A stretch of 38,546 bases of DNA from Planctomycetota bacterium (lineage in GTDB: Bacteria > Planctomycetota > UBA8742 > JACQVU01 > JANLHZ01). The DNA lies in NCBI GenBank assembly GCA_024653775.1, contig JANLHZ010000311.1:1-38546 (forward strand). Direction: 5' to 3'. Of the stretch, positions 2,446 to 35,608 are shown one piece after another. The position numbers were made by a program, and so were the translations under genes. A model generated the notes under the pieces. It searched no databases and had not been told where the DNA came from. It was given only the letters and a program-made list of their open reading frames with translations. Position 1 is the first letter of the stretch. Each line of letters begins with the position of its first letter.

Positions 2446-3516
2446 ATGTCGATGGCGGCGCTTATAAAATTCAACAGCCAGAGCGGAGCGATAATCTGCG
2501 ACGAGGAATACCTCCACGCGGGCAAGCGCAGGGTTCCGTACGGAGACTATCTCGAAAGTCTGCTCGACGAAAAGCAGGCGGACGAACTCGACGCCGAACT
2601 GATCTACGCGATGGTCGGGACTCCGAGTCTTTCGGGCGAGGTCCAGCGCGAAATCCGCAAGGCACTCGGGAAGAAACACAAACGCAGCGTGAACGACGAA
2701 CCAGAAGTCGTGCCCTTCGACGACCTCGCGAGAATATGCACCGACACCGCGCGCACCCTCGTCAAGAAGTGGCAGGACCGCAGGCTCGACGCGCTTTACG
2801 GCTTCAATTCCGACGACTTCAACCGCGGCACGTTCAGCGAAGACGGAAAAAACATCGAAATCTCGCAGGAAGCCGTCAAGAAGCGCGCATCGGAGATGAC
2901 GTCGAGGCCCGAGAAATCCATCGCGCTTATCGAACACAGCGCGATCGTCTTCGGATGGGACCGCAAAAATGGAATCGCGGGTGTCACTTTCGACAGCGCC
3001 ACCGGGTCGTCGAGTTACATCTCCGGAGCCTTCGAAGTCATCGGACGCGGCTCGACCGCGGTCAAGATGACGCTGCAGGAATTCGTCGGGAGGCAGGACG
3101 TCAGCAGTCGCCGCATAGGTCGCGATCCAATCGAAAGCTGCACCGCGCTTCTCTGCGCCTACGCAAAGTGCGAGGAGCAGTTCCACGAAGTCGGCGGCTA
3201 TCCGCGCATTATTATCCTCGACGGATCGAAACTGAAGCACTCCGAGCGGGTGAAGGAAATCGCCAACGCGCCCGCGAAGCTCGCAAAGGAAATCGTCAAC
3301 GCCTACCGATGGGAGTTCATCGATCGAAAGACCGCGCACTCGCTAATCGAAGGCGTCGTATTCGCGAATCTCGGGTTCGATGAAGCAGAGGAAAAACTCT
3401 TCGCGTCCTGCCGAGAACCGTCGAAACTCGAACTCTGCCTCCGCGGCTACAAACCCGGATCGCTCCCCACGAAAGCCGCGTCGTTCAGCGCCCACGGAAA
3501 GCCTAAGAAAAAATGA
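2446..3516 (+). CDS. Divergent proteasome-beta-fold (Ntn hydrolase-like) protein, paralogue 1, probably inactive
   Basis: The 356-residue protein is clearly paralogous to the product of 4468-5532. Both share FN..(S/Q)GAI..DEE near the N terminus, a YGF...D(F/Y)..G.(F/Y)S..DG segment, GGYP.I.I.DG, and a C-terminal LRGYK. The order looks like a proteasome beta subunit: first strand with turn Asp19, a FGWD strand (equivalent to AGYD), a GRGS loop (about 200-203) followed by a helix, a DPIE-type helix and GGYP (250-253). An extra 100-150 residues lie in the middle. AAGGA 8 nt upstream supports the start at 2446, placing Ser2 where the nucleophilic Thr1 would be. The position matching Lys33 is Tyr35, so catalysis is doubtful. 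Confidence 0.6.
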   Translation: MSMAALIKFNSQSGAIICDEEYLHAGKRRVPYGDYLESLLDEKQADELDAELIYAMVGTPSLSGEVQREIRKALGKKHKRSVNDEPEVVPFDDLARICTDTARTLVKKWQDRRLDALYGFNSDDFNRGTFSEDGKNIEISQEAVKKRASEMTSRPEKSIALIEHSAIVFGWDRKNGIAGVTFDSATGSSSYISGAFEVIGRGSTAVKMTLQEFVGRQDVSSRRIGRDPIESCTALLCAYAKCEEQFHEVGGYPRIIILDGSKLKHSERVKEIANAPAKLAKEIVNAYRWEFIDRKTAHSLIEGVVFANLGFDEAEEKLFASCREPSKLELCLRGYKPGSLPTKAASFSAHGKPKKK

Positions 3517-3654
3517 GTGGCGGGGAGTGGTCAAGGGATTCACATTCTCAATTCCTGATTCTGCATTCTGCTTATTCATTTTGTGGCGCTCCCGCGAGAA
3601 TCCTGTTCATAATGTGAAGGATCGAATACCAACCAAAGCTGCCACCGAGGACCA

Positions 3655-4323
3655 ATGACACGAGAACTCTGGAACACCGTCGATAGTTACATTTGCGACG
3701 CCCTGAACGCCTGCGACGACGTGCTCGATCTCGCCCAGCGCGAGGCGGCGGACGCCGGCCTTCCGAACATCAGCGTCAGCGCCAATCAGGGAAAGCTCCT
3801 GAACCTCATCGCGAGGATGATGAACGCGCGCAACATTCTCGAAATCGGCACCCTCGGCGGATTCAGCGCCATCTGGATGGCACGCGCGCTGCCTCCGGGC
3901 GGCCGGCTCATCAGCCTCGAAATCGAACAGCAGTGCGCGGACGTCGCGAGAAAAAACATCGAGCGCGCGGGACTTTCCAAGCTCGTCGACATTCGCGTCG
4001 CGCCCGCTATCGAAACCCTGCCGAAGCTCGTTAAGGAGGTCGAGGCGCCGTTCGACCTCGTTTTCATCGACGCCGACAAAAAGAGCATCCCTGAGTATTT
4101 CGAGTGGGCGCTGAAAATGTCCCGCGTCGGTACGATGATCGTCGTCGACAACGTCGTCCGCGGCGGAACCGTTATCGATCCGGATTCGGACGACCCAGGC
4201 GTCCACGGCATTCGAAGGGTCAACGAGCTTATCGCTAGGGAACCGCGCGTCAGCGCGACCGCGATCCAGACAGTCGGAAGCAAAGGCTACGATGGACTTC
4301 TATTCGCGCTCGTCGTTGCGTAG
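3655..4323 (+). CDS. SAM-dependent O-methyltransferase, CCoAOMT-like family 3
   Basis: The 222-residue protein has the methyltransferase motif I LEIGTLGGFS (62-71), the acidic SAM-binding SLEIE, and the divalent metal-binding region FIDADK (137-142) followed by DNVVRGG (165-171). These are typical of small cation-dependent O-methyltransferases that methylate catechol-like hydroxyls. GAGGA lies 5 nt before the ATG. It sits between the two proteasome-like paralogues on the same strand, with gaps of 138 and 144 nt. The upstream gap holds an ATTCTGCATTCTGC-type simple repeat. The natural substrate is unknown, and a link with its neighbours is only suggested by position. Confidence 0.85.
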   Translation: MTRELWNTVDSYICDALNACDDVLDLAQREAADAGLPNISVSANQGKLLNLIARMMNARNILEIGTLGGFSAIWMARALPPGGRLISLEIEQQCADVARKNIERAGLSKLVDIRVAPAIETLPKLVKEVEAPFDLVFIDADKKSIPEYFEWALKMSRVGTMIVVDNVVRGGTVIDPDSDDPGVHGIRRVNELIAREPRVSATAIQTVGSKGYDGLLFALVVA

Positions 4324-4467
4324 TCGAAGTTCATCGGAGGCGCGGAGTTCGCGGTGCAACGCGGAGGAAAGAAAATCGTTTCCGCTTACGGCGAGGAATG
4401 AATTACTTGCACTTAATTTTTAATTATTAACTATTAATTTTAAATTATTAATTATTATTTTCACGAA
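4324..4467 (+). other. Intergenic gap with AT-rich low-complexity tract
   Basis: Positions about 4405-4462 are nearly all A and T, made of overlapping TTAATTA / AATTATTAA words, in sharp contrast to the GC-rich genes on both sides. It lies directly upstream of the GTG start at 4468 and may hold the promoter, but no convincing -35/-10 pair can be chosen in such sequence. Confidence 0.6.
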
Positions 4468-5532
4468 GTGACAAGCATCAACGCCATCCGTTTCAACGAG
4501 CATCAGGGCGCCATCGCTACCGACGAGGAGATGACCATCCAGAGCGAGGTCAAGCTGCCCGTGTCGGACAAGGTGCGCAACGTAATCCCGGACTCCATCA
4601 TCGAGCAGTACGGTCTTGTCGCGAGCGTATCGACGACTGGCTCCGCGCCGTTTGGAGTTCAGCTAACGGATACCGTAAGACGAAGGATTCGCGACGATCA
4701 TGATAGCTTCATCCTACGCACCGGGAAGCCGCCGGCGATCTCGAAATCCGTCGAGGACGTCGCGGAACTCGCTTTCGAAGTCGCCGCGGAAATGCGCAAG
4801 GACTACATCGACGAAGTTCTCCTTACCCGCTACGGATTTTCGCGCAAGGACTACATCAAAGGCTTCTACTCCGGAAAGGACGGCCGCGTCGACATCAAGG
4901 ACAAAACCGTTCTCGAATCCGCGAATCAGATGATCGTCGGAAAGTCGGAATACACGAGGCACTTCTCGCGCAACCACGGCTTCATCGCCGGGTGGTCTTC
5001 CGTCGACAACTTCCGGATGTATTACTTCTCGCTCGCGACGCTGCTACTCGAACCGATCGGCACCTTCTTCCAGGCGAGCGGCTCAGGACTCGATTCCGCG
5101 GACATCGTCTTCGGCGAATACGCGCGGCACCTCCCCCTCGATCAGCGACGGGGCGACATCGATCCAGTCGACGGCCTCTTCACGCTGATCAAAGCCCTAA
5201 ACATGGCGAGTCGCATGAGCTTCGGCTGCGGCGGCTATCCGAACATCACGATCTTCGACGGCAAACAGAAAGAGAATTCGAAGAAGCGCAAGGAAATCGC
5301 GGATCACCGCGCGAAGTTCGCGAGCGAAATCGTTTACGCCGCGGAAGAGCAGCTTATTACGCGCTCGCTCGCGTCTGAATGCATCGAGGACACTCTGGTG
5401 AAGGATAAGCCATTCCACGAGTCGGAGCAGAAAATCCTTTCGAAAACGAAAAATCTTCGCGCGCTTTCGAGACTGCTTCGAGGCTACAAACGCTCGGACG
5501 GAATATCTCTCGCGGACCGAAGACGAAAATAG
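4468..5532 (+). CDS. Divergent proteasome-beta-fold (Ntn hydrolase-like) protein, paralogue 2, with intact T/D/K
   Basis: The 354-residue product starts at GTG and reads M-T-S-I-N-A-I-R-F-N, so removal of Met exposes Thr as N-terminal residue, as in HslV and mature proteasome beta subunits. Asp19 (in GAIATDEE) and Lys35 fall where Asp17 and Lys33 of the proteasome lie. Further matches are GLVASVSTTG before a helix, a FIAGW strand, ASGSG (203-207) followed by DSADIVFGEY, a DPVDGLFTLIKALN helix, then C-GGYP (254-258) and ITIFDG. About 100-150 residues, including LTRYGFSRKDYIKG, are inserted mid-protein, and a Lys/Arg-rich tail follows the fold. No strong ribosome site is seen. The fold call is by eye from motif order; the family is unknown to me. 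Confidence 0.62.
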   Translation: MTSINAIRFNEHQGAIATDEEMTIQSEVKLPVSDKVRNVIPDSIIEQYGLVASVSTTGSAPFGVQLTDTVRRRIRDDHDSFILRTGKPPAISKSVEDVAELAFEVAAEMRKDYIDEVLLTRYGFSRKDYIKGFYSGKDGRVDIKDKTVLESANQMIVGKSEYTRHFSRNHGFIAGWSSVDNFRMYYFSLATLLLEPIGTFFQASGSGLDSADIVFGEYARHLPLDQRRGDIDPVDGLFTLIKALNMASRMSFGCGGYPNITIFDGKQKENSKKRKEIADHRAKFASEIVYAAEEQLITRSLASECIEDTLVKDKPFHESEQKILSKTKNLRALSRLLRGYKRSDGISLADRRRK

Positions 5533-5595
5533 TTCCGCGGCTAAAGGCCGCTACTCTGGACGCGCCGCAGTCGTAGCTGCGACCGGAAACAAAAA

Positions 5596-5621
5596 AGGGC
5601 GGGAATAATCCCGCCCTCGAT
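5596..5621. terminator. Bidirectional intrinsic terminator between convergent genes
   Basis: A perfect 9-bp stem (AGGGCGGGA at 5596-5604, TCCCGCCCT at 5609-5617) has a 4-nt loop. The minus strand runs into six T residues (plus-strand A at 5591-5596), giving a strong terminator for the gene at 5650-7278. The plus strand has CGATTTT after the stem, adequate for 4468-5532. Two further small hairpins (GCGGC..GCCGC and CGCAG..CTGCG) lie at about 5536-5575. Confidence 0.85.
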
Positions 5622-16215: not shown

Positions 16216-17517
16216 TCAAGTACGCTCGATTTTGAGTCTCAGGAAATGCGTCGCGCAGGAAATGCAGGGATCATAGTTCCGTATTGTCTGCTCTGCCAGA
16301 AAGCGAGCCTCGTCGTCGGATAGTTCCACTATAGTCTGCGCAATGTCTCGAAGGTCATTTTCGATGGTCGGCTGATTCTGCGACGTCGGCGGAACTATCT
16401 TGGCGGAGACTATAGACTCTGAACTATCTATTTCGTAGCGATGGAACAGTATCCCGCGAGGCGCTTCGGTACAGGCCGTTCCTTTTCGCATACTCGCGCC
16501 GGTGGTAGCCGGAGTATGGATGAACGGCGGACCACCAAAACTATTACCGCGAATAATCCGTATGGATTCTTCCGCGGCGAAGATCACTTCGATCAGGCGG
16601 ACGAGTATACCTTTGTATGGATTCGCCACCGGCGGCGCGAGGCCTATGGCCTTTGCGGTTTGCAATGCCAGCGGGGATAGTTTCTCGAAATTCAGATTGA
16701 ACCTGGCTATGGGTCCAACGAAATAAGCGCCGCGATTTTTGATATGTGAATGGAGCGCGTTCGAATGGCGGACGTGTTCCTCGACGAAATTATCCTCATA
16801 TTCCGCGCACGCGATATCGAGACCGCTGCTCGAAACTATCCTCCCGTCGTTCAGCGGGTATTCCGCGGGATGGCAAAGCGCAACGAACTCGTAATCGCGA
16901 CTATAGTCCCGGAAATCCTTCTTAGCGAAAAACGTTGCGGCTTTCGCAGCCTCGTCCCGGACGAATTCAAGCTCTGGAACCAATGCTTCGAAATCCTTCC
17001 TCGGCAGGATTTTATAAAAGCCGCCGACGCGGACGTTTATCGGATGGATTTCGCGGCCGCCGAGGAGTGACATAATTGCGTTCCCGGCTTTTTTCATACG
17101 GAGCGCGGTCTTGACGAGGTCCGGATTCAATTTCGCGAGCGCGACCGCGTCCGGCACTCTGAACATATCCGGAGCCTGGAGCATAAAAACGTGCAGCACG
17201 TGGCTTTCGATCCATTCGCCGCAGTAAAGGAGCCGTCGAAGTTCACGATTTTCGCCTTCGATTTTCATTCCGAGCGCGTTCTCGATCGCGTGGCAGCTAG
17301 ACATCTGATACGCCACAGGGCAGATGCCGCAGATTCGCGCGGTGATGTCCGGGACTTCCATCATCGAGCGGCCGCGCAGGAACGCCTCGAAGAACCTCGG
17401 CGGTTCGAAAATGCGGAACTCCGCGATCTCGCACACGCCGTCCTTGACGCGGATCGTGAGCGCGCCTTCGCCTTCCACGCGCGCGATGTAATCGACTTTG
17501 ATGGTTCTGTCTTTCAC
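16216..17517 (-). CDS. hydA: [NiFe] hydrogenase large (alpha) subunit, group 3b / sulfhydrogenase type
   Basis: The large subunit carries the Ni-Fe active site of a cytoplasmic bidirectional NAD(P)-linked hydrogenase. The 433-residue protein has both cysteine pairs: [17 protein letters not shown] (61-77) and DPCISCATH (416-424), all as Cys codons. Only nine residues follow the final His, so any C-terminal extension removed on maturation is short. The gene lies 2 nt after the small-subunit gene. Full enzyme assembly needs the beta and gamma subunits encoded at 24021-26644 on the same strand; no maturation (hyp) gene is in the window. Confidence 0.92.
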
Positions 17518-17519
17518 GA

Positions 17520-18296
17520 TTACCTCGCGTATTTGATTCCCGCAGACGCGAACGGCTCCGCGGCGGCGTTGAAGGTGTGAAAAAGGCGCTGGATGTCTAT
17601 CGGAGACGCGCCGAGTTCGGTGAGGCGGTGCGCGAGCGCGGTGGTGTTCGCGGTCTCGTTCGGACCGTAGCAGCCGAAGCAGGCGCGGTCGTAGGTCGGA
17701 CAGAGAGCGTTACAGCCCGCATTCGTGACGCCGCCCGCGCAGAATTCGCCGCGGGTGACCATTATACAAGGATTCCCGCGCATTTTGCATTCGATACATA
17801 CGCTGTGGCTGAAAATCGCGGCTTTCCGGTGGTTCAGGAACGCGCTGATGACTTCGAGGAGCTGCGATTTGTTTATCGGGCACCCGCGAAGTTCGAAATC
17901 CACGCGCACGACGTCTTTTATCGGACTGCTTTTGTCGAGAGTCTCGATGAACTCGGGCGAAGCGTAAACCGCCCGCGCGAATTCCTTCACGTCGGCGTAG
18001 TTGCGGAGCGCCTGTATGCCGCCTGCGGTGGCGCACGCGCCGATGGTGATAAGGACGCGGGAGTTCGCGCGGACTTCGAGAATGCGCTTTCGATCGTGCT
18101 CCGTCGTGATCGAACCCTCGACGAGGGAAAGGTCGTACGGACCCTCGCGCATCCGGCTGGAGCCTTCAGGGAAGTACGCGATATCGACCGCGTCAGCGAC
18201 GGCGAGAAGCTCGTCCTCGCAGTCGAGCAGGCTGAGTTGGCAGCCGTCGCAGGAGGCGAATTTCCACACGGCGAGCTTTGGTTTCTTGTTGGTCAT
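17520..18296 (-). CDS. hydD: [NiFe] hydrogenase small (delta) subunit
   Basis: The small subunit carries Fe-S clusters passing electrons to and from the Ni-Fe site. The 258-residue protein opens with [19 protein letters not shown] (CDGCQ at 16-20), continues with [15 protein letters not shown] and [10 protein letters not shown], and then has the C-terminal Cys set ([29 protein letters not shown]) of the group 3 F420/NAD-type small subunits. I chose ATG 18296 (MTNKK) over an in-frame ATG 21 nt upstream because an AAAGG site precedes it. In related operons this gene directly follows hydG; here hydG begins about 5.7 kb away, beyond plus-strand genes. Confidence 0.9.
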
Positions 18297-18473
18297 TTCG
18301 AACTGCCTTTGTAACATCCCTGCGATGTAATTCTAACCCGGACAATTGATTTCGAAACATCCCGATGCGAAGAAAGTCAAAATAGAGCAGCACGCGCGGG
18401 AAAGGATGAAGTAGTACGGCACGGCGGAAACCTTTTAGCCTCCTAAGTCTTCAAAAACGCATTCGAAGAAAAA

Positions 18474-21999: not shown

Positions 22000-22028
22000 T
22001 TGACAAAACCTCCTGATGGTCATATACT
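22000..22028 (+). promoter_or_regulatory. Strong sigma70-like promoter of the Phd/VapC operon
   Basis: TTGACA (22000-22005) and TATACT (22023-22028) are separated by exactly 17 nt, near consensus. The start of transcription would be about 28 nt before the antitoxin ATG at 22063. GTCAT and ATGAC half-sites flank the -10 box, which could be an operator for autoregulation, but this is weak. Confidence 0.75.
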
Positions 22029-22062
22029 TTGTACATCTAAGATGACTATAACCGAGGTCAGA

Positions 22063-22335
22063 ATGAAAACTCATACAGTAAGCATCGCGGAAGGAAAGAA
22101 AGACTTCAGCAAGCTGATAAACGAAGCGGCGGAGAATCACGAAGATATCGTTGTGACCAAGCGTGGGAAGCCAGTCGCGGTGATCGTATCGTTTGAAGAC
22201 TACAAACTCGATGCGAGGCATCGCGCGTATCTAAACATCCTCAAGCTGCGCGAACAAGTCTCTCCTCCCGGAGTGACTTCAGAAGAAATTCTCCAGGAAT
22301 CAAAGGATGAGTTGGAGCGCCGAAGCCGGATATGA
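22063..22335 (+). CDS. Phd/YefM family antitoxin
   Basis: The 90-residue protein has the Phd/YefM DNA-binding start THTVSIAEGKKDFSKLINEA, then VVTKRGKPVAVIVSFEDYK, and a charged C-terminal tail able to wrap a toxin. ATG 22063 is preferred over ATG 22042 because GAGG lies 5 nt upstream and the fold starts here. The stop overlaps the toxin start (ATGA). It probably represses the promoter at 22000. Confidence 0.88.
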   Translation: MKTHTVSIAEGKKDFSKLINEAAENHEDIVVTKRGKPVAVIVSFEDYKLDARHRAYLNILKLREQVSPPGVTSEEILQESKDELERRSRI

Positions 22336-22760
22336 AACAGATGGTGGTTGACTCAAGCGTAGTCCTCAAGTGGTTTCTTCCCGGCGAAGTCTATGAAGCG
22401 CAGTCCTTATCGATATTCGAAGATTTTGTCCAAAGGAAGGTTGAAATACACGTGCCGACAATCTTCCACTATGAAGTGTTAAATGTAATTGTTGTTTCTA
22501 TAAGACGCGAGAGATTGAACCATTCAAAAGCTGACACTGCCCTTCAAAACTTTCTCAACCTGAAATTCCCCACACATGACGCGCTTGATCTCGCGTGGGA
22601 TGTTCTCCAGGCCTGTAAAGAGTACCCGATCTCAGGCTATGACGCTTCGTATTTGAGCCTTTCTACCAGCTTGAACGCCGACTTCTTTACCGCAGATAAA
22701 AGACTTTTTAATAACGTAAAGAAATTGCAATTTGTTAAGTGGATTGGCGATTACAAGTAG
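22332..22760 (+). CDS. vapC: VapC-like PIN-domain toxin ribonuclease
   Basis: The 142-residue PIN-domain protein has VVDSSVVLKWFLP (first catalytic Asp), FHYEVLNV (Glu), SGYDASYLSLS (third acidic residue) and FFTADKRLFN (fourth Asp), so all metal-binding positions are present. It should cut specific RNAs unless bound by the antitoxin encoded just upstream with an ATGA overlap. This is the second toxin-antitoxin pair in the block between hydD and hydG. Confidence 0.9.
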   Translation: MKQMVVDSSVVLKWFLPGEVYEAQSLSIFEDFVQRKVEIHVPTIFHYEVLNVIVVSIRRERLNHSKADTALQNFLNLKFPTHDALDLAWDVLQACKEYPISGYDASYLSLSTSLNADFFTADKRLFNNVKKLQFVKWIGDYK

Positions 22761-30513: not shown

Positions 30514-32331
30514 GTGCCGAAAGAGACCCATAAAACTCTGCTGAAGCTCGCCACGCCCGCAGCCGCGGGGATTTCAGGATTTCGCTCGAAGTCGATCCGG
30601 GAGAATCTTGGGCGCGCGATCTCCGGCATCTCGGACGATCGCGTTCTTCGGGCGCTCGAAAAATTCTTTTCGCGATACTACGTCGAAGGCGTTTTCACGC
30701 CGCGAGGACTCGGCCAGGGAAACGATGGCGTCGGCTTTCGCTGGCGGGACGAGCGCCGCGTGTTTGTGCAGGATTCTCGAGCGGGAGCAAAATCGAAGGA
30801 CGTTTTCATCCACGAAAATCTTGGCGGCTATCTTCGCGCTGAACTCGGCGCGTTCGTCCGCGCGGAGATCGTGGAAATCGAGAACGCTTCGTCGCTAGCG
30901 CTTGCGAAAGATGTTCTCGAAGCTGGGAATGCAATCGTGGACGCGCTCGCCGAGAAGGAGGACGCGCTTTTCGAACTGTGGACGTCTACGCGGAAAGTTT
31001 TAAGCGAGGATTACATCGTGACGCTCGATCTCGTTCCGGAGGCGCTGATTTCTGAAGTCCGCCGAAACGAAGAGCAGCAGCGTTCGTGGGCGATTCTTGG
31101 ATTCGATCCGTCGTCCGGGGGAACGTTTTCGATAGACACGAAATTCTTCTCCCCGGAGTTCAGGTCGAAGCTGCTTGGCTGCCTTCGGGACCGCGCGAGG
31201 AATCCGGACGGCGTTATGATCCACGCGGACAACGCCGCGGGACTCAGGCATCTGCTTCTCGGCCGCGCGGGCGGAATCAAATGCGTCTACATCGACCCGC
31301 CGTACAACACCGGCGAGGCCGGCTTCACGTACCGCGACTCCATAGACGGTTCCGCGTGGTGCTCGATGATGCACGAACGCCTCGAACTTGCGCGCGCGCT
31401 CCTCGCGGATAACGGTGCGCTTTTCGTCAGCATCAGCGACGAAAGCTCCTCGAAACTGAGGTTCATCCTGGACGACGTCTTCGGCGCGAAGAACTACGTC
31501 GGCACCATCGAATGGAATTCCACGAAAAGCGTCACGAACACGCAGCTCCTCGCCACGCAGCACACGCACAATTTCGTTTACGTGAAGGACTCGGAATTCT
31601 TCAGGAAACGCCGCGAGTTGTTTCGCCTTTCGGACGTTCCGGACGGATTCTCGAATCCGGATAACGATCCGCGCGGACCGTGGAAGGCCGATCCGTTCCA
31701 GGTCGGTGGCGAACGTCCGAACCAGCTCTACAAGGTAACGAATCCCACCACCGGGGAAGTTTACCGCCCTAGACCGGGGTGCTCGTGGAAGAACGACTTC
31801 CAGACCTTCGAAAAACTGATGGCGGAGGGCCGGATCGTCTTCGGCAAGCGCGGCGCCTCAGGCCCGCAGCGAAAGCGATTCTGGAGCGAAGCGAAGGCAC
31901 GCGGTCGCGTTGCGAAGACGTGGTGGGACGACGCCGGAACGACGACGGGCGCGACTCGAATGCTCCAGGATATGTTCGGGGAGTCGCCTTTCACCAATCC
32001 GAAGCCGGTGGAGCTGATAAAGCGCTTTATCGAGCTTGGGACGTACGAAAACGATCACGCGGTGCTGGACTTCTTCGCTGGCTCGGGAACTACGGGGCAC
32101 GCCTGCCTTGAACTTGGAAAGCCGTTCGTTCTGATCGAATCCGGCGCGCACTTCGAAACTGTGTTGAAGCCGCGGATTCAGAAGGCGATCTTCGCAAAAC
32201 GATGGAAAAACGGTAAACCCGCGCCGGACCGCTCCAGCGACTCTGATCGCCGCGAAAACGACTCCCGCCGCGAGCGCGTGATCAAGTATCTCCGCCTTGA
32301 GTCATTTGACGACGCGCTGGAACGATACTAA
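30514..32331 (+). CDS. Type III-like (beta class) site-specific DNA adenine methyltransferase, orphan
   Basis: The 605-residue protein (GTG start) has an N-terminal LRALEKFFSRYYVEGVF segment typical of large type III-like methyltransferases, the catalytic IDPPYNTG (260-267), then GALFVSISDE, and the SAM-binding DFFAGSGTTGH (519-529), so DPPY precedes FxGxG as in beta-class enzymes making N6-methyladenine. It ends at RVIKYLRLESFDDALERY, where long Mod proteins, as far as I recall, continue, so the C terminus may be truncated. No helicase-nuclease (Res) gene is present; the next genes are kelch proteins on the other strand, overlapping by 4 nt. Confidence 0.85.
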   Translation: MPKETHKTLLKLATPAAAGISGFRSKSIRENLGRAISGISDDRVLRALEKFFSRYYVEGVFTPRGLGQGNDGVGFRWRDERRVFVQDSRAGAKSKDVFIHENLGGYLRAELGAFVRAEIVEIENASSLALAKDVLEAGNAIVDALAEKEDALFELWTSTRKVLSEDYIVTLDLVPEALISEVRRNEEQQRSWAILGFDPSSGGTFSIDTKFFSPEFRSKLLGCLRDRARNPDGVMIHADNAAGLRHLLLGRAGGIKCVYIDPPYNTGEAGFTYRDSIDGSAWCSMMHERLELARALLADNGALFVSISDESSSKLRFILDDVFGAKNYVGTIEWNSTKSVTNTQLLATQHTHNFVYVKDSEFFRKRRELFRLSDVPDGFSNPDNDPRGPWKADPFQVGGERPNQLYKVTNPTTGEVYRPRPGCSWKNDFQTFEKLMAEGRIVFGKRGASGPQRKRFWSEAKARGRVAKTWWDDAGTTTGATRMLQDMFGESPFTNPKPVELIKRFIELGTYENDHAVLDFFAGSGTTGHACLELGKPFVLIESGAHFETVLKPRIQKAIFAKRWKNGKPAPDRSSDSDRRENDSRRERVIKYLRLESFDDALERY

Positions 32332-33542
32332 TCTCCGTCCGGATCGAATTCCCAAAGTTCGTTGTGTGGATCGCGCCTTCCCGGACCGCACCCCGCGAAA
32401 ACCAGCATCTTCGATCCGGTCCACACCGCGCAGTCGAGGGCGGTTCCCTTGCGCTCCGGATGGACTTCGATCTTCCGCCATTCGTCCTTCTCTGGATCGT
32501 AAATCGCGCCGTCCTTCAGTCCCGCACCGGACTCGTTCTCGAGACCGCCGTAGACGATGAAACTCTTCCCGGTCCAGAGCGTGCCCGCGTAAAGCCTCGG
32601 AGGGATAACGTCACAGGTTTTGATCTCGGTCCACTTGTTCTGCTCGAAATTGTAGAGCCTGGCGGAACACACGAGCGCGCGTCCGCCCTCGGCCTCTTCG
32701 CGGGCCGCGCTGAAACAAAGAAGCGCGCTTTCCGAGCACGCCCCCGATTGCGCGATGCTCCCCCGCAACGCCCCCTCTTCCGCCATCGACTGCCAGGAGT
32801 CAGTTTCCGGATCGTAAATCCCGCCCGTGGCGAGACCCGAGTTCTCGCCCTCTGACGTCGATCCGCCGAAAACGATGAACTTCGATCCGCTCCAGAACCC
32901 GAAACTGCACGCGATTCGCGCTTCCGGCGCGTTTTCGGAGGACATATTCTCCCAGGTGTCGGTCTTCGGATCGTATAGCTTTCCGTCTCCGAGGGATTTG
33001 CCATCCGCGCCCATTCCGCCCCAGACAATCATTTTCGAACCCGTCCACGTGCTCGCGAAGGCAGACCGGGGGGAAGGCGCGTTTTCAGCGCTCATCGTAG
33101 TCCATTCGTTGCGGGAAAGATTGTACCGCGCGCCGTCAGCCTTAAGTTCCGCGACGTGACCCGGTTTGATCATCCCGCCCCAGACGATCATCTCAAGGCC
33201 GGTCCAGACCTTACTGCTCAAATACCGGGGCGAAGGCGCGAACTTCGTAGACATGCGATTCCAGTGGTCCCTCTGTGGGAGATAGATCGCGCCGTCGCCC
33301 AGCGCGTCGGTCCCGTTCGGGCCGCGCCTTCGGTGCCTCGACATTCCGCCCCACACGATCAGCGAGTCGCCGGACCAGACGATCGCCTGCGCCCCCCGCG
33401 AAGCGGGCGCGTCGTTGCTCGAAAGTCTTCGCCACGTTCCGACGCCGTCATCCTCCGCGGCGGCGCCTACTCCGAGGATCGAAATTATCAGAGCGATCAG
33501 AACGATAATCCTCAGTTCCGACCTCGATTCCTGTCTCGTCAT
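32328..33542 (-). CDS. Secreted kelch-repeat beta-propeller protein, paralogue 1
   Basis: The 404-residue protein starts with a signal peptide (RIIVLIALIISILGVGAAAE, about 10-30) and then repeats of about 55 residues with the pattern WTG.KMIVWGG...GDG..YDP..D.W...S..NAP..R, about six to seven blades of a propeller. AAGGAG directly before ATG 33542 selects this start over a longer frame. It is a tandem paralogue of 33847-35016 and would act in the periplasm or outside the cell as a binding protein. The blade after about residue 230 (ACSESALLCFSAAREEAEGG) is less regular. Confidence 0.87.
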   Translation of the reverse strand: MTRQESRSELRIIVLIALIISILGVGAAAEDDGVGTWRRLSSNDAPASRGAQAIVWSGDSLIVWGGMSRHRRRGPNGTDALGDGAIYLPQRDHWNRMSTKFAPSPRYLSSKVWTGLEMIVWGGMIKPGHVAELKADGARYNLSRNEWTTMSAENAPSPRSAFASTWTGSKMIVWGGMGADGKSLGDGKLYDPKTDTWENMSSENAPEARIACSFGFWSGSKFIVFGGSTSEGENSGLATGGIYDPETDSWQSMAEEGALRGSIAQSGACSESALLCFSAAREEAEGGRALVCSARLYNFEQNKWTEIKTCDVIPPRLYAGTLWTGKSFIVYGGLENESGAGLKDGAIYDPEKDEWRKIEVHPERKGTALDCAVWTGSKMLVFAGCGPGRRDPHNELWEFDPDGD

Positions 33543-33846
33543 TTTCTCCTTCCAGTTCCTAACCCGGACGAGCCGGAACCAAAATTCTTCAGCGCGGAGC
33601 CGCGGAGCGCGCAGAGCTTCGCAGAGAATTTTTCGAATCTCCTCAATTCTCCCTCCGAATTCTATGTGGCCTGGCGCCTTTGCGCGAGACATAAATTGAA
33701 CGCCGTTCGCAGGTCGGACGCGCGCGCTTTGCGGGGTCTGCGAACGAGAATTTCTATTCTCCGCGAGCCTCCGCGTCCTCTGCGCCTCTGCGCCGAAGAA
33801 GAATCGAAAATCGTCTCGTTTTGCTGATGTTTTCATTGATAAAAGA
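33543..33846. repeat. Intergenic gap with degenerate CGCNGAG repeats
   Basis: The gap between the two kelch genes has no convincing gene. Words of the GCGGAG/CGCAGAG type at about 33594-33630 face CTCCGCG/CTCTGCG words at about 33758-33800, giving a loose inverted repeat. Related words occur at about 4336-4370 and in the 64-bp insertion at 38201-38264, so this may be a decayed member of that REP-like family. Confidence 0.45.
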
Positions 33847-35016
33847 CTACTTGCCCTCTGGATCGTATTCCCAAAGTTCGTTCGTCATCGCGCGGGGAGT
33901 TTCGCCGCCGCCGAAGACGAGCATTTTCTCCCCGGTCCAGACCGCGGAATGGGCGACTCGTCCGATCATATCCGGATCGACCTTGATCGCCTCCCACTCG
34001 TCCCCAGCGGTTGTTGTTGCGGGATAATAAATCCCGCCGGTTTTTAGTCCGTCGCCGCCCTGGTTCTCGATTCCGCCGTAGACGATCATCGAGTTTCCGG
34101 TCCACACGGCGCTGTGAAGCGCCCGTCTTCCCGGGGAGTTTTTGTGCGAAATTTCCCGCCATTCGCCCGATTCGAGGTTGTAGATACCGCCCGAATCCGT
34201 CGCGTCCCGCTCTCTCTGACCTCTGACGCCGCCGAAGACGATGATTTCGGAGCCGGTGGAAACCACGGTCTGATACATCGCGCCGCCGGGCGAATTCTCG
34301 TCCGACATCCCCTCCCAGGCGTCCTCGGCGGGATCGTAAAAGCCTCCCGTAGAAAGCGCTTGCTCTTCGAGATCCTCGAACCCTCCGAAAACGAGCATGC
34401 GATCGTTCTCGAAAATCGCGACGTAACCCGCGCGGCCTCCAGGATTTCCGAGTGATGAAATATAGCTCCAGCTATCAGTTTCCGGGTCGTAGGCTCTTCC
34501 GTCGCTGAGCGGTTTTTCCTTTTCGCCGATGCCGCCCCAGACGATCATCTCGGTGCCGGTCCATACCGAATTTGCCATAAATCTTGCCGAGGGCGCGTCC
34601 TGTTCCGAGATTTTGGTCCAGGTATCGGTTTCGAGATCGTACGCGGCTCCGTCGGATTTTACATCCGCCGGTCCGCCCCGGCCTCCACCGCCCCAGATTA
34701 CGAGCTTCGAGCCAGTCCAGGCGGCAGAGTGGAAGAATCGGCCCTCGGGAGCGTTTTCGTCCGACATTATCGTCCACTTGTCCTCCTTCGGATCGTAGAT
34801 GCCGCCATTTTGGGGAAACGTCCGGCCATCGCTCGTACCGCCCCAGACGATCAGTTTATCGCCGGTCCAGAATGCGCTGAACGCACCCCGTCCGTCAGGC
34901 GCGCCTTCGCTCGAAAGCCTGCGCCACGACCCGCGGCCTTCGTCCCCGCGAACCACGGACAACGACACGGTCAACGAAATAATGAAGGTGAGAAGGAATA
35001 TCAGCGTTCGCGTCAT
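33847..35016 (-). CDS. Secreted kelch-repeat beta-propeller protein, paralogue 2
   Basis: The 389-residue protein has a signal peptide (RTLIFLLTFIISLTVSLSVVRG) and about six to seven kelch blades with WTG..LIVWGG, DGG.YDP..D.W...SDENAPEGR and related units, ending NELWEYDPEGK; its neighbour ends NELWEFDPDGD. Two ATGs lie 6 nt apart (35022, 35016); GGAG is better spaced for the second. The shared WRRLSS start and closing sequence show a tandem duplication with strong divergence. Confidence 0.87.
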   Translation of the reverse strand: MTRTLIFLLTFIISLTVSLSVVRGDEGRGSWRRLSSEGAPDGRGAFSAFWTGDKLIVWGGTSDGRTFPQNGGIYDPKEDKWTIMSDENAPEGRFFHSAAWTGSKLVIWGGGGRGGPADVKSDGAAYDLETDTWTKISEQDAPSARFMANSVWTGTEMIVWGGIGEKEKPLSDGRAYDPETDSWSYISSLGNPGGRAGYVAIFENDRMLVFGGFEDLEEQALSTGGFYDPAEDAWEGMSDENSPGGAMYQTVVSTGSEIIVFGGVRGQRERDATDSGGIYNLESGEWREISHKNSPGRRALHSAVWTGNSMIVYGGIENQGGDGLKTGGIYYPATTTAGDEWEAIKVDPDMIGRVAHSAVWTGEKMLVFGGGETPRAMTNELWEYDPEGK

Positions 35017-35075
35017 TTTCATCTCCGGGTGGTTTTGAGTCGATATGGGGTAGTTGTTAGAAACTATCGTGGGCA

Positions 35076-35132
35076 CCTGGGACCGCGGACGTCCTCGTCC
35101 GCAAAAGCCGTCAAACGTCTCGTTTGACGGCT
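35076..35132 (+). repeat. Dispersed repeat family A', core plus 12-bp hairpin
   Basis: The core CCTGGGACCGCGGACGTCC (35076-35094) then TCGTCCGCAAA is identical to the copy at 24017-23988 (minus). The hairpin arms AGCCGTCAAACG (35106-35117) and CGTTTGACGGCT (35121-35132) pair perfectly across TCT. Compared with the other copy, both arms change together, keeping 12 pairs. Here it lies upstream of a kelch gene and downstream of the VOC gene at 35222. Confidence 0.8.
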
Positions 35133-35187
35133 CCGAAATGTCCTGTTCGCTTGCTTGAGATAGTTTCTTAGTGGTTAGAGTATTCTC

Positions 35188-35215
35188 ATTCGTAATTCGT
35201 AATTCGTAATTCGTA
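35188..35215. repeat. Short tandem repeat, four copies of ATTCGTA
   Basis: Four exact 7-bp units are followed by ATTCC, just downstream of the VOC gene stop at 35222. Copy number could vary between strains. Confidence 0.9.
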
Positions 35216-35221
35216 ATTCCC

Positions 35222-35608
35222 TCAGGCGTCAGTGTTCGAGTGCAGCGCGATGCGGTTGCCCTCGCTGTCGAGACAGATCGCCCGGAATCCGTGTGGTCCG
35301 ATCTGGTGGGTTGTCTCGAGGATCTTGCCACCTGCGGGCTCCACCTTCGAAACCGCATCCCTTATCCGTTCGTTGACGTTGAAATAAAGAAGCAGACCGC
35401 CCGTGGAGGTGATCTGTTCCGGCGCTTCGATAAGACATCCGCCGTTGCCATCCTTGTGCTCGAACACACCGAACTTCATTCCTTCCATCTCGTGGACGCT
35501 GACTTCGCAGGCGAGCACGGCCTGATAGAATTCCGCGGACCTCGAAAGGTTTTTTACGGGAACGTCAAACCACACTGCTCGGTTATGAACGGAATTTAAA
35601 TCCGACAT
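35222..35608 (-). CDS. VOC family protein (glyoxalase/bleomycin resistance-like)
   Basis: The 128-residue single VOC module has AVWFDVPVKNLSRSAEFYQAVLACEV, then MKFGVFEHKDGNGGCLIEA, LLLYFNVNERIRDAVSKVEPAGGKILE and GFRAICLDSEGNRIALHS, with the usual metal-site positions. The reaction is unknown. AAGGAG 5 nt before ATG 35608 selects this start. It is not close in sequence to the VOC protein at 18535, and its neighbours give no functional hint. Confidence 0.85.
   Translation of the reverse strand: MSDLNSVHNRAVWFDVPVKNLSRSAEFYQAVLACEVSVHEMEGMKFGVFEHKDGNGGCLIEAPEQITSTGGLLLYFNVNERIRDAVSKVEPAGGKILETTHQIGPHGFRAICLDSEGNRIALHSNTDA

Follow-up and report, generated by a model that had tools for sequence, protein, structure and literature searches.

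A conserved pair of proteasome-like genes, one probably encoding an active threonine hydrolase and the other a degenerate paralogue, in several obscure bacterial phyla

Contig JANLHZ010000311.1 of the Planctomycetota assembly GCA_024653775.1 (38,546 nucleotides, referred to here as the window) carries two genes whose products resemble each other and, in predicted fold, the subunits of the proteasome. Gene A (2446-3516, + strand; ATG start, 356 aa) and gene B (4468-5532, + strand; GTG start, 354 aa) are separated by a gene for a class I S-adenosylmethionine (SAM) O-methyltransferase (3655-4323, + strand; Methyltransf_3, expectation value (E) 2.3e-46). The original prediction, made from this DNA, described two motif-sharing proteins of about 355 residues with an O-methyltransferase between them, and the open reading frames (ORFs) bear this out. 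The motifs it listed are all there (GAI..DEE in both proteins, FGW or AGW, DPI or DPV, and GGYP), as are the G.GS-type loop (GRGS in A, GSG in B) and, in both proteins, a mid-protein insertion with YGF...DF/DY..G. As it also stated, no HslU, Mpa, ARC or alpha subunit is nearby among the window ORFs scanned with Pfam. With A as the query, a search of the window's own genome recovered B (E 1.8e-29, 25% identity) and no third copy of either gene. Profile-profile comparison of A with B aligned 340 columns, including the insertion and the C-terminal part (E 4.9e-69). Chance similarity is not a credible source of this resemblance given the profile comparison and the A-to-B match, and we rejected it on the profile and fold results.

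The fold of both proteins had been put forward in advance as the result that could overturn the prediction. AlphaFold2 models, built with a 35-sequence family alignment, were confident for B (predicted local distance difference test (pLDDT) score 91.4, predicted template modeling (pTM) score 0.87) and for A (pLDDT 89.6, pTM 0.86). Foldseek comparison with the PDB placed 20S subunits first in both cases, with a best E of 2.7e-10 and a template modeling score (TM-score) of 0.79 on target length for B, and 7.7e-10 and 0.74 for A. All of the top 50 PDB rows for each protein are 20S proteasome or Anbu subunits. B is thus modeled as a four-layer alpha-beta-beta-alpha sandwich of proteasome topology, and A likewise takes the proteasome fold. 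In the viral library, the best match was an HslV-like phage protein.

A profile match to an unrelated family was the other outcome named beforehand as damaging, and neither Pfam nor NCBIfam returned any family for the window's A or B at E ≤ 10. PF00227, searched at E ≤ 1 against the window's own genome, found HslV only and neither A nor B; that genome also has an ordinary HslVU, on contig C41. At the level of the whole family a faint link to the proteasome does appear. The family profile searched against PDB sequences found proteasome subunits only at E ≤ 0.02 (best E 2.5e-4), in an alignment that sets LAGYD..EGF..Y....G-S-G against the corresponding hairpin and the GSGS loop of alpha5. Among the 35 family members, three also have a Pfam Proteasome match (best E 7.2e-4).

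The residues of the proteasome active site divide the two proteins sharply. We counted them in 36 B proteins and in the 30 A proteins that cover the sites (33 distinct A overall). Ser129 equivalence was taken from the profile alignment, in which the B GSG meets the KAIGSGSEGA loop of alpha5, and the other catalytic positions from strand order in the B model; active-site geometry was accordingly judged by strand order and conservation, not by distances. In the model, strands S1 (3-8) and S2 (13-18) are followed by Asp19, Lys35 immediately precedes the next strand, and Gly58 lies after strand 51-56 and before helix H1 (60-85; H2 is 95-122), the same order as Asp17, Lys33 and Gly47 of the proteasome. 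Thr2 of B (codon 4471-4473, + strand), which would be Thr1 once Met is removed, is Thr in 36/36. Asp19 (4522-4524, +; equivalent to proteasome Asp17, at the end of S2), Lys35 (4570-4572, +; Lys33), Gly58 (4639-4641, +; Gly47, of the oxyanion hole) and the Gly-Ser-Gly at 205-207 (5080-5088, +; the Ser129 loop) are equally invariant across all 36. In A, by alignment, the counterpart of Thr2 is Ser2 (2449-2451, +), and position 2 is Ala, Ser or Gly in 30/30 with no Thr at all. The counterpart of Lys35 is a Tyr in the window's A (2548-2550, +), and no A protein has Lys there, with N, H, S, Y and others instead. The GSG counterpart is Gly-Arg-Gly (3043-3051, +), its Ser remaining in just 2 A proteins. 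What A retains is Asp19 (2500-2502, +; D in 30/30) and the Gly58 equivalent (29/30).

The same division emerged when alignment columns were screened blindly for conservation of at least 94% in B that A does not share. Seven came up: T2, A6, residue 110, K35, S206, G253 and R281. The Thr1, Lys33 and Ser129 equivalents are all among them. The conservation of Thr2 is not a product of searching with the TSINA peptide pattern, since B members found by whole-genome profile searches, with TVVNA, TVVSA, TTINA or TVINA starts, keep it too. Having kept the full catalytic set, B is probably an active Thr N-terminal nucleophile (Ntn) hydrolase, and A, which has lost Thr1, Lys33 and nearly every Ser129, is probably its catalytically dead partner. 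The proposal of a pair of hydrolases therefore fails for A, because B alone retains the catalytic residues. Ser2 of the window's A was considered as a replacement nucleophile and judged unlikely, Lys33 being gone in every A.

Both proteins are enlarged in the same two places. A helical insertion after H1/H2 occupies residues ~123-168 of B (4834-4971, + strand), bears the YGF...D..G motif and comprises helix 126-131, strands 133-136 and 139-142, and helices 146-157 and 164-167. It is conserved in A and B, and its counterpart in the A model, aligned with that of B, spans residues ~119-160 (2800-2925, +). Beyond the last core strand of the B model, four helices form a C-terminal extension (residues ~280-340; 5305-5487, +) ending in an LRGY motif, of which R338, G339 and Y340 are mostly conserved in both proteins. 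The A model carries this extension as well. Neither model has the alpha-type N-terminal helix H0, both beginning directly at strand S1. Since the additions are common to A and B, the shared architecture suggests that the two arose by a duplication after departure from the proteasome stem, separate from the alpha/beta duplication.

The deduplicated family comprises 36 distinct B and 33 distinct A proteins, with A upstream of B in 29 pairs. Outside the window, 28 pairs have intergenic distances of -4 to 99 nt; in 14 of them the stop and start codons overlap by 4 nt, as is typical under translational coupling. The window departs from this arrangement, and the methyltransferase that separates its two genes was rejected as a functional third member: because A and B adjoin in the other 28 pairs measured, it is specific to the window genome and was judged not to belong to the unit, which corrects the original prediction. 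An AT-rich stretch upstream of B (4410-4465, + strand), in an otherwise GC-rich region, may give B a promoter of its own here. A GC-rich inverted repeat with a 10-pair stem, 63 bp after B (5595-5618), is a weak candidate for a terminator closing the unit; terminator-like sites showed no enrichment over shuffled sequence. A 100-aa ORF lies 84 bp upstream of A (2059-2361, +), has no convincing family match and is not found near other pairs.

In a quick tree, A and B form two clades, one on each side of a branch with a Shimodaira-Hasegawa-like approximate likelihood ratio test (SH-aLRT) support of 99. Pairwise distances among A proteins track those among B proteins (Mantel r 0.86, p 0.0001), which fits a pair inherited together. 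The "solitary" Ntn hydrolase family of the original prediction is instead a conserved A-B gene pair; its reading as an undescribed proteasome-fold family is supported. At locus L021 B seems to have no A, and a DUF772 transposase lies directly upstream, in A's place. Separately, locus L071 (G394:C154, 2204-5440, - strand) is an A-B-B' triple in which the second B keeps all catalytic residues.

When 84,980 species genomes were scanned, 18 loci were recovered, an undercount because the scan was based on peptide patterns. These loci are in metagenome-assembled genomes (MAGs), as are all host genomes, labeled CSSED10-310, Planctomycetota, Wallbacteria, Eremiobacterota, Schekmanbacteria, Bacillota and others. 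By whole-genome profile search, family members were found in 3/392 genomes of the window's phylum, in 4/40 of the phylum of the Wallbacteria genome, and in 2/78 in each of two overlapping samples of the phylum of G392 and G396. In CSSED10-310 (the phylum of G393) they were found in 7/8 genomes, with up to four pairs each; several genomes have three or more pairs. A phage, plasmid or defense origin was discarded, as no relatives of A or B were found in phage records, plasmid records or viral contigs, and there was no PADLOC match.

Serine/threonine kinase genes lie near several pairs. Some such proximity is expected because nearly all host genomes carry tens to more than 100 kinases: among G000, G051, G087 and G392-G402 there are 9 in G399 and at least 21 in each of the others searched, with more than 100 in some. 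These neighbors were accordingly set aside. Elsewhere in the window, a Phd/YefM-type antitoxin gene followed by one for a PIN-domain protein (22000-22760, +) is a likely type II toxin-antitoxin pair, and two adjacent genes for ~500-aa kelch-repeat proteins (32328-33836 and 33847-35358, -) are probably tandem paralogues. A nickel-dependent hydrogenase large-subunit-like gene adjoins a 20-kDa oxidoreductase subunit-like gene at 16216-18317 (-).

Taken as a whole, these data are probably best explained by A and B being members of an undescribed, divergent proteasome-like (T1/Ntn) family that forms a heteromeric threonine hydrolase, with B as the active subunit and A as a dead partner serving in gating, docking or scaffolding. 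Methionine aminopeptidase removes Met when residue 2 is small. A and B alike have a small residue 2, and each is therefore expected to lose its Met. In B, this would take off Met1 and expose Thr as the N-terminal nucleophile, with no need for a propeptide; such Met removal has been observed in Anbu (PMC5666114). Lys34 and Asp18 (mature numbering) would activate this Thr, Gly57 (mature numbering) would form the oxyanion hole, and the Gly-Ser-Gly loop would supply Ser205, as in HslV and proteasome beta subunits. A, lacking the Thr1, Lys33 and Ser129 equivalents, would be a structural or regulatory partner, made before B and translationally coupled to it in most members. We infer that the two associate physically, most likely as a mixed A/B complex, in which A would do the gating, substrate-docking or scaffolding job done elsewhere by alpha subunits or an AAA+ ring. 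A peptide or isopeptide bond is the probable substrate.

Several observations weigh against this explanation. HMM-HMM (hidden Markov model) comparison with five HslV sequences gave no match, which leaves only a faint tie by sequence to known families and puts the weight of the argument on the fold. In the 2021 survey of proteasome-like proteins by Fuchs, Alva and Lupas, long insertions after H1/H2 are said to possibly clash with ring formation (PMC8665760); since A and B each have such an insertion, a ring cannot be taken for granted. The correlation of A and B distances may be due to shared inheritance and not to contact. Finally, the B of locus L074 (G396:C42, 3167-4255, +) has no recognized A beside it and is the deepest branch among B proteins, which could reflect either a state like that before the duplication or loss of A.

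The hindrance to ring stacking that the same survey attributes to insertions at this site (PMC8665760) also favors a different, unlikely reading, in which B is an amidohydrolase, peptide ligase or transpeptidase with a narrow substrate, like connectase, and A binds that substrate, the two forming a small non-ring heteromer of peptide or isopeptide metabolism. Connectase shares the proteasome-like catalytic domain, a helical insertion and the lack of an ATPase, but its insert lies between S3 and S4 and it is without H1/H2 (PMC8665760), whereas A and B keep H1/H2. No unfoldase was seen adjoining the pairs examined. At three loci of the TVVNA subfamily, in CSSED10-310-type genomes (L019, L072 and L082), the gene order is M20 peptidase-A-B, and in two of these a circularly-permuted-ATP-grasp-like protein is encoded next downstream, with Pfam scores below the curated cut-offs. 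An ATP-grasp protein is likewise encoded in the Anbu operon (PMC5666114), which this arrangement resembles. At L020 the gene after B encodes an M29 aminopeptidase. The peptidase and ATP-grasp neighborhood is, however, limited to a few CSSED10-310 loci, and the neighbors of other pairs are unrelated: polyprenyl synthetase (after B in five genomes of another subfamily), UbiA and transporters. With neighbors varying in this way, the function is not fixed by neighborhood. The catalytic set of B is moreover that of the proteolytic HslV and beta subunits.

It is rather improbable that B, or both proteins, fall within a subfamily already listed in 2021, either PHI, whose helical insertion follows H1/H2, or a variant of PMI, leaving only the dead partner and the pairing as new. 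The survey listed 22 new proteasome-like families and predicted more, and it describes an insertion after H1/H2 and a sparse distribution for PHI, PMI-3 and PMI-4 (PMC8665760), both as in A/B. PHI, however, is there among the closest sequence connections to proteasome subunits (PMC8665760), much closer than A and B, which PF00227 (E ≤ 1) and Pfam (E ≤ 10) both miss; PHI is set apart here by description only. PMI-2 to PMI-6 require an H3/H4 insertion (PMC8665760), and none is present in the A and B models. No paired inactive paralogue is described for PHI or PMI in the parts of the survey consulted (PMC8665760). The survey set conservation of the catalytic residues and a minimum of 10 members as conditions and used a database dated August 2020 (PMC8665760), so it would have passed over the dead A and most of the A/B MAGs. 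All but one of the A/B accessions, judged by their prefixes, look like post-2020 MAG depositions. Identity with a 2021-listed family such as PHI is thus unlikely, and our open-literature searches, including for work after 2021, found no description of the A/B pair.

A slightly weaker case can be made that A is not dead and has its own activity or a ligand site in the old active-site cleft, making the pair either two distinct enzymes or an enzyme with a sensor. Near the former active site A does have conserved residues of its own (Arg28 in all, Pro60 in 97%, Gly56 in 83%, His63 in 77%). Yet His63 is not universal (the window's A has Ser), and A shows no catalytic constellation of a known kind, which leaves this improbable. 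That the resemblance is incidental, and A and B ordinary metabolic proteins of another fold, would suit their lack of a Pfam or NCBIfam match but is barely conceivable given two confident models, exclusively proteasome-family top structural matches and catalytic residues at the right places.

Set against known systems, a heteromer of active B and dead A would resemble the 20S beta and alpha subunits in its alpha-beta-beta-alpha fold, in the Thr1/Asp17/Lys33/Gly47/Ser129 equivalents of B and in its split into active and inactive paralogues. It differs in having only ~12% identity, no propeptide on B, no ATPase partner near A/B, the helical insertion after H1/H2 and the four-helix C-terminal extension, and in that A and B are each other's closest relatives. 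HslV (ClpQ) likewise has an N-terminal Thr and an Asp17/Lys33/Ser124-type set without a conserved equivalent of proteasome Asp166, and no conserved Asp is found at the D166 position in A/B (alignment columns 249-251). HslV, however, is ~175 aa and a single gene paired with HslU, while B has 354 aa, no HslU in the window and, as noted, no HMM-HMM match. Anbu, among the top structural matches of B, has a Thr exposed by Met removal, no propeptide, a C-terminal helix and no AAA+ partner (PMC5666114). Unlike A/B, it is a single gene with no dead paralogue and no insertion after H1/H2, and its operon partners, a transglutaminase and Alpha-E, were not seen with A/B.

By current thinking, the proteasome began with the alpha/beta split, in which a dead subunit guards an active one. 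The A/B pair suggests that several obscure bacterial phyla hold a second two-part proteasome-like machine, built independently of the known one. More tentatively, it may be a second two-component proteasome with its own duplication, a mixed compartment, A as the gate or docking part and no AAA+ partner, a core machine of CSSED10-310, with several specialized pairs per cell, that spread to Planctomycetota and other candidate phyla. Because the two genes are small and usually back to back, the pair is directly testable by co-expression. If true, an independently repeated split with different decorations and without a known ATPase would be a natural control for the purpose of the inactive partner, and it would add a multi-copy proteasome-like machine to a phylum with almost no biochemistry.

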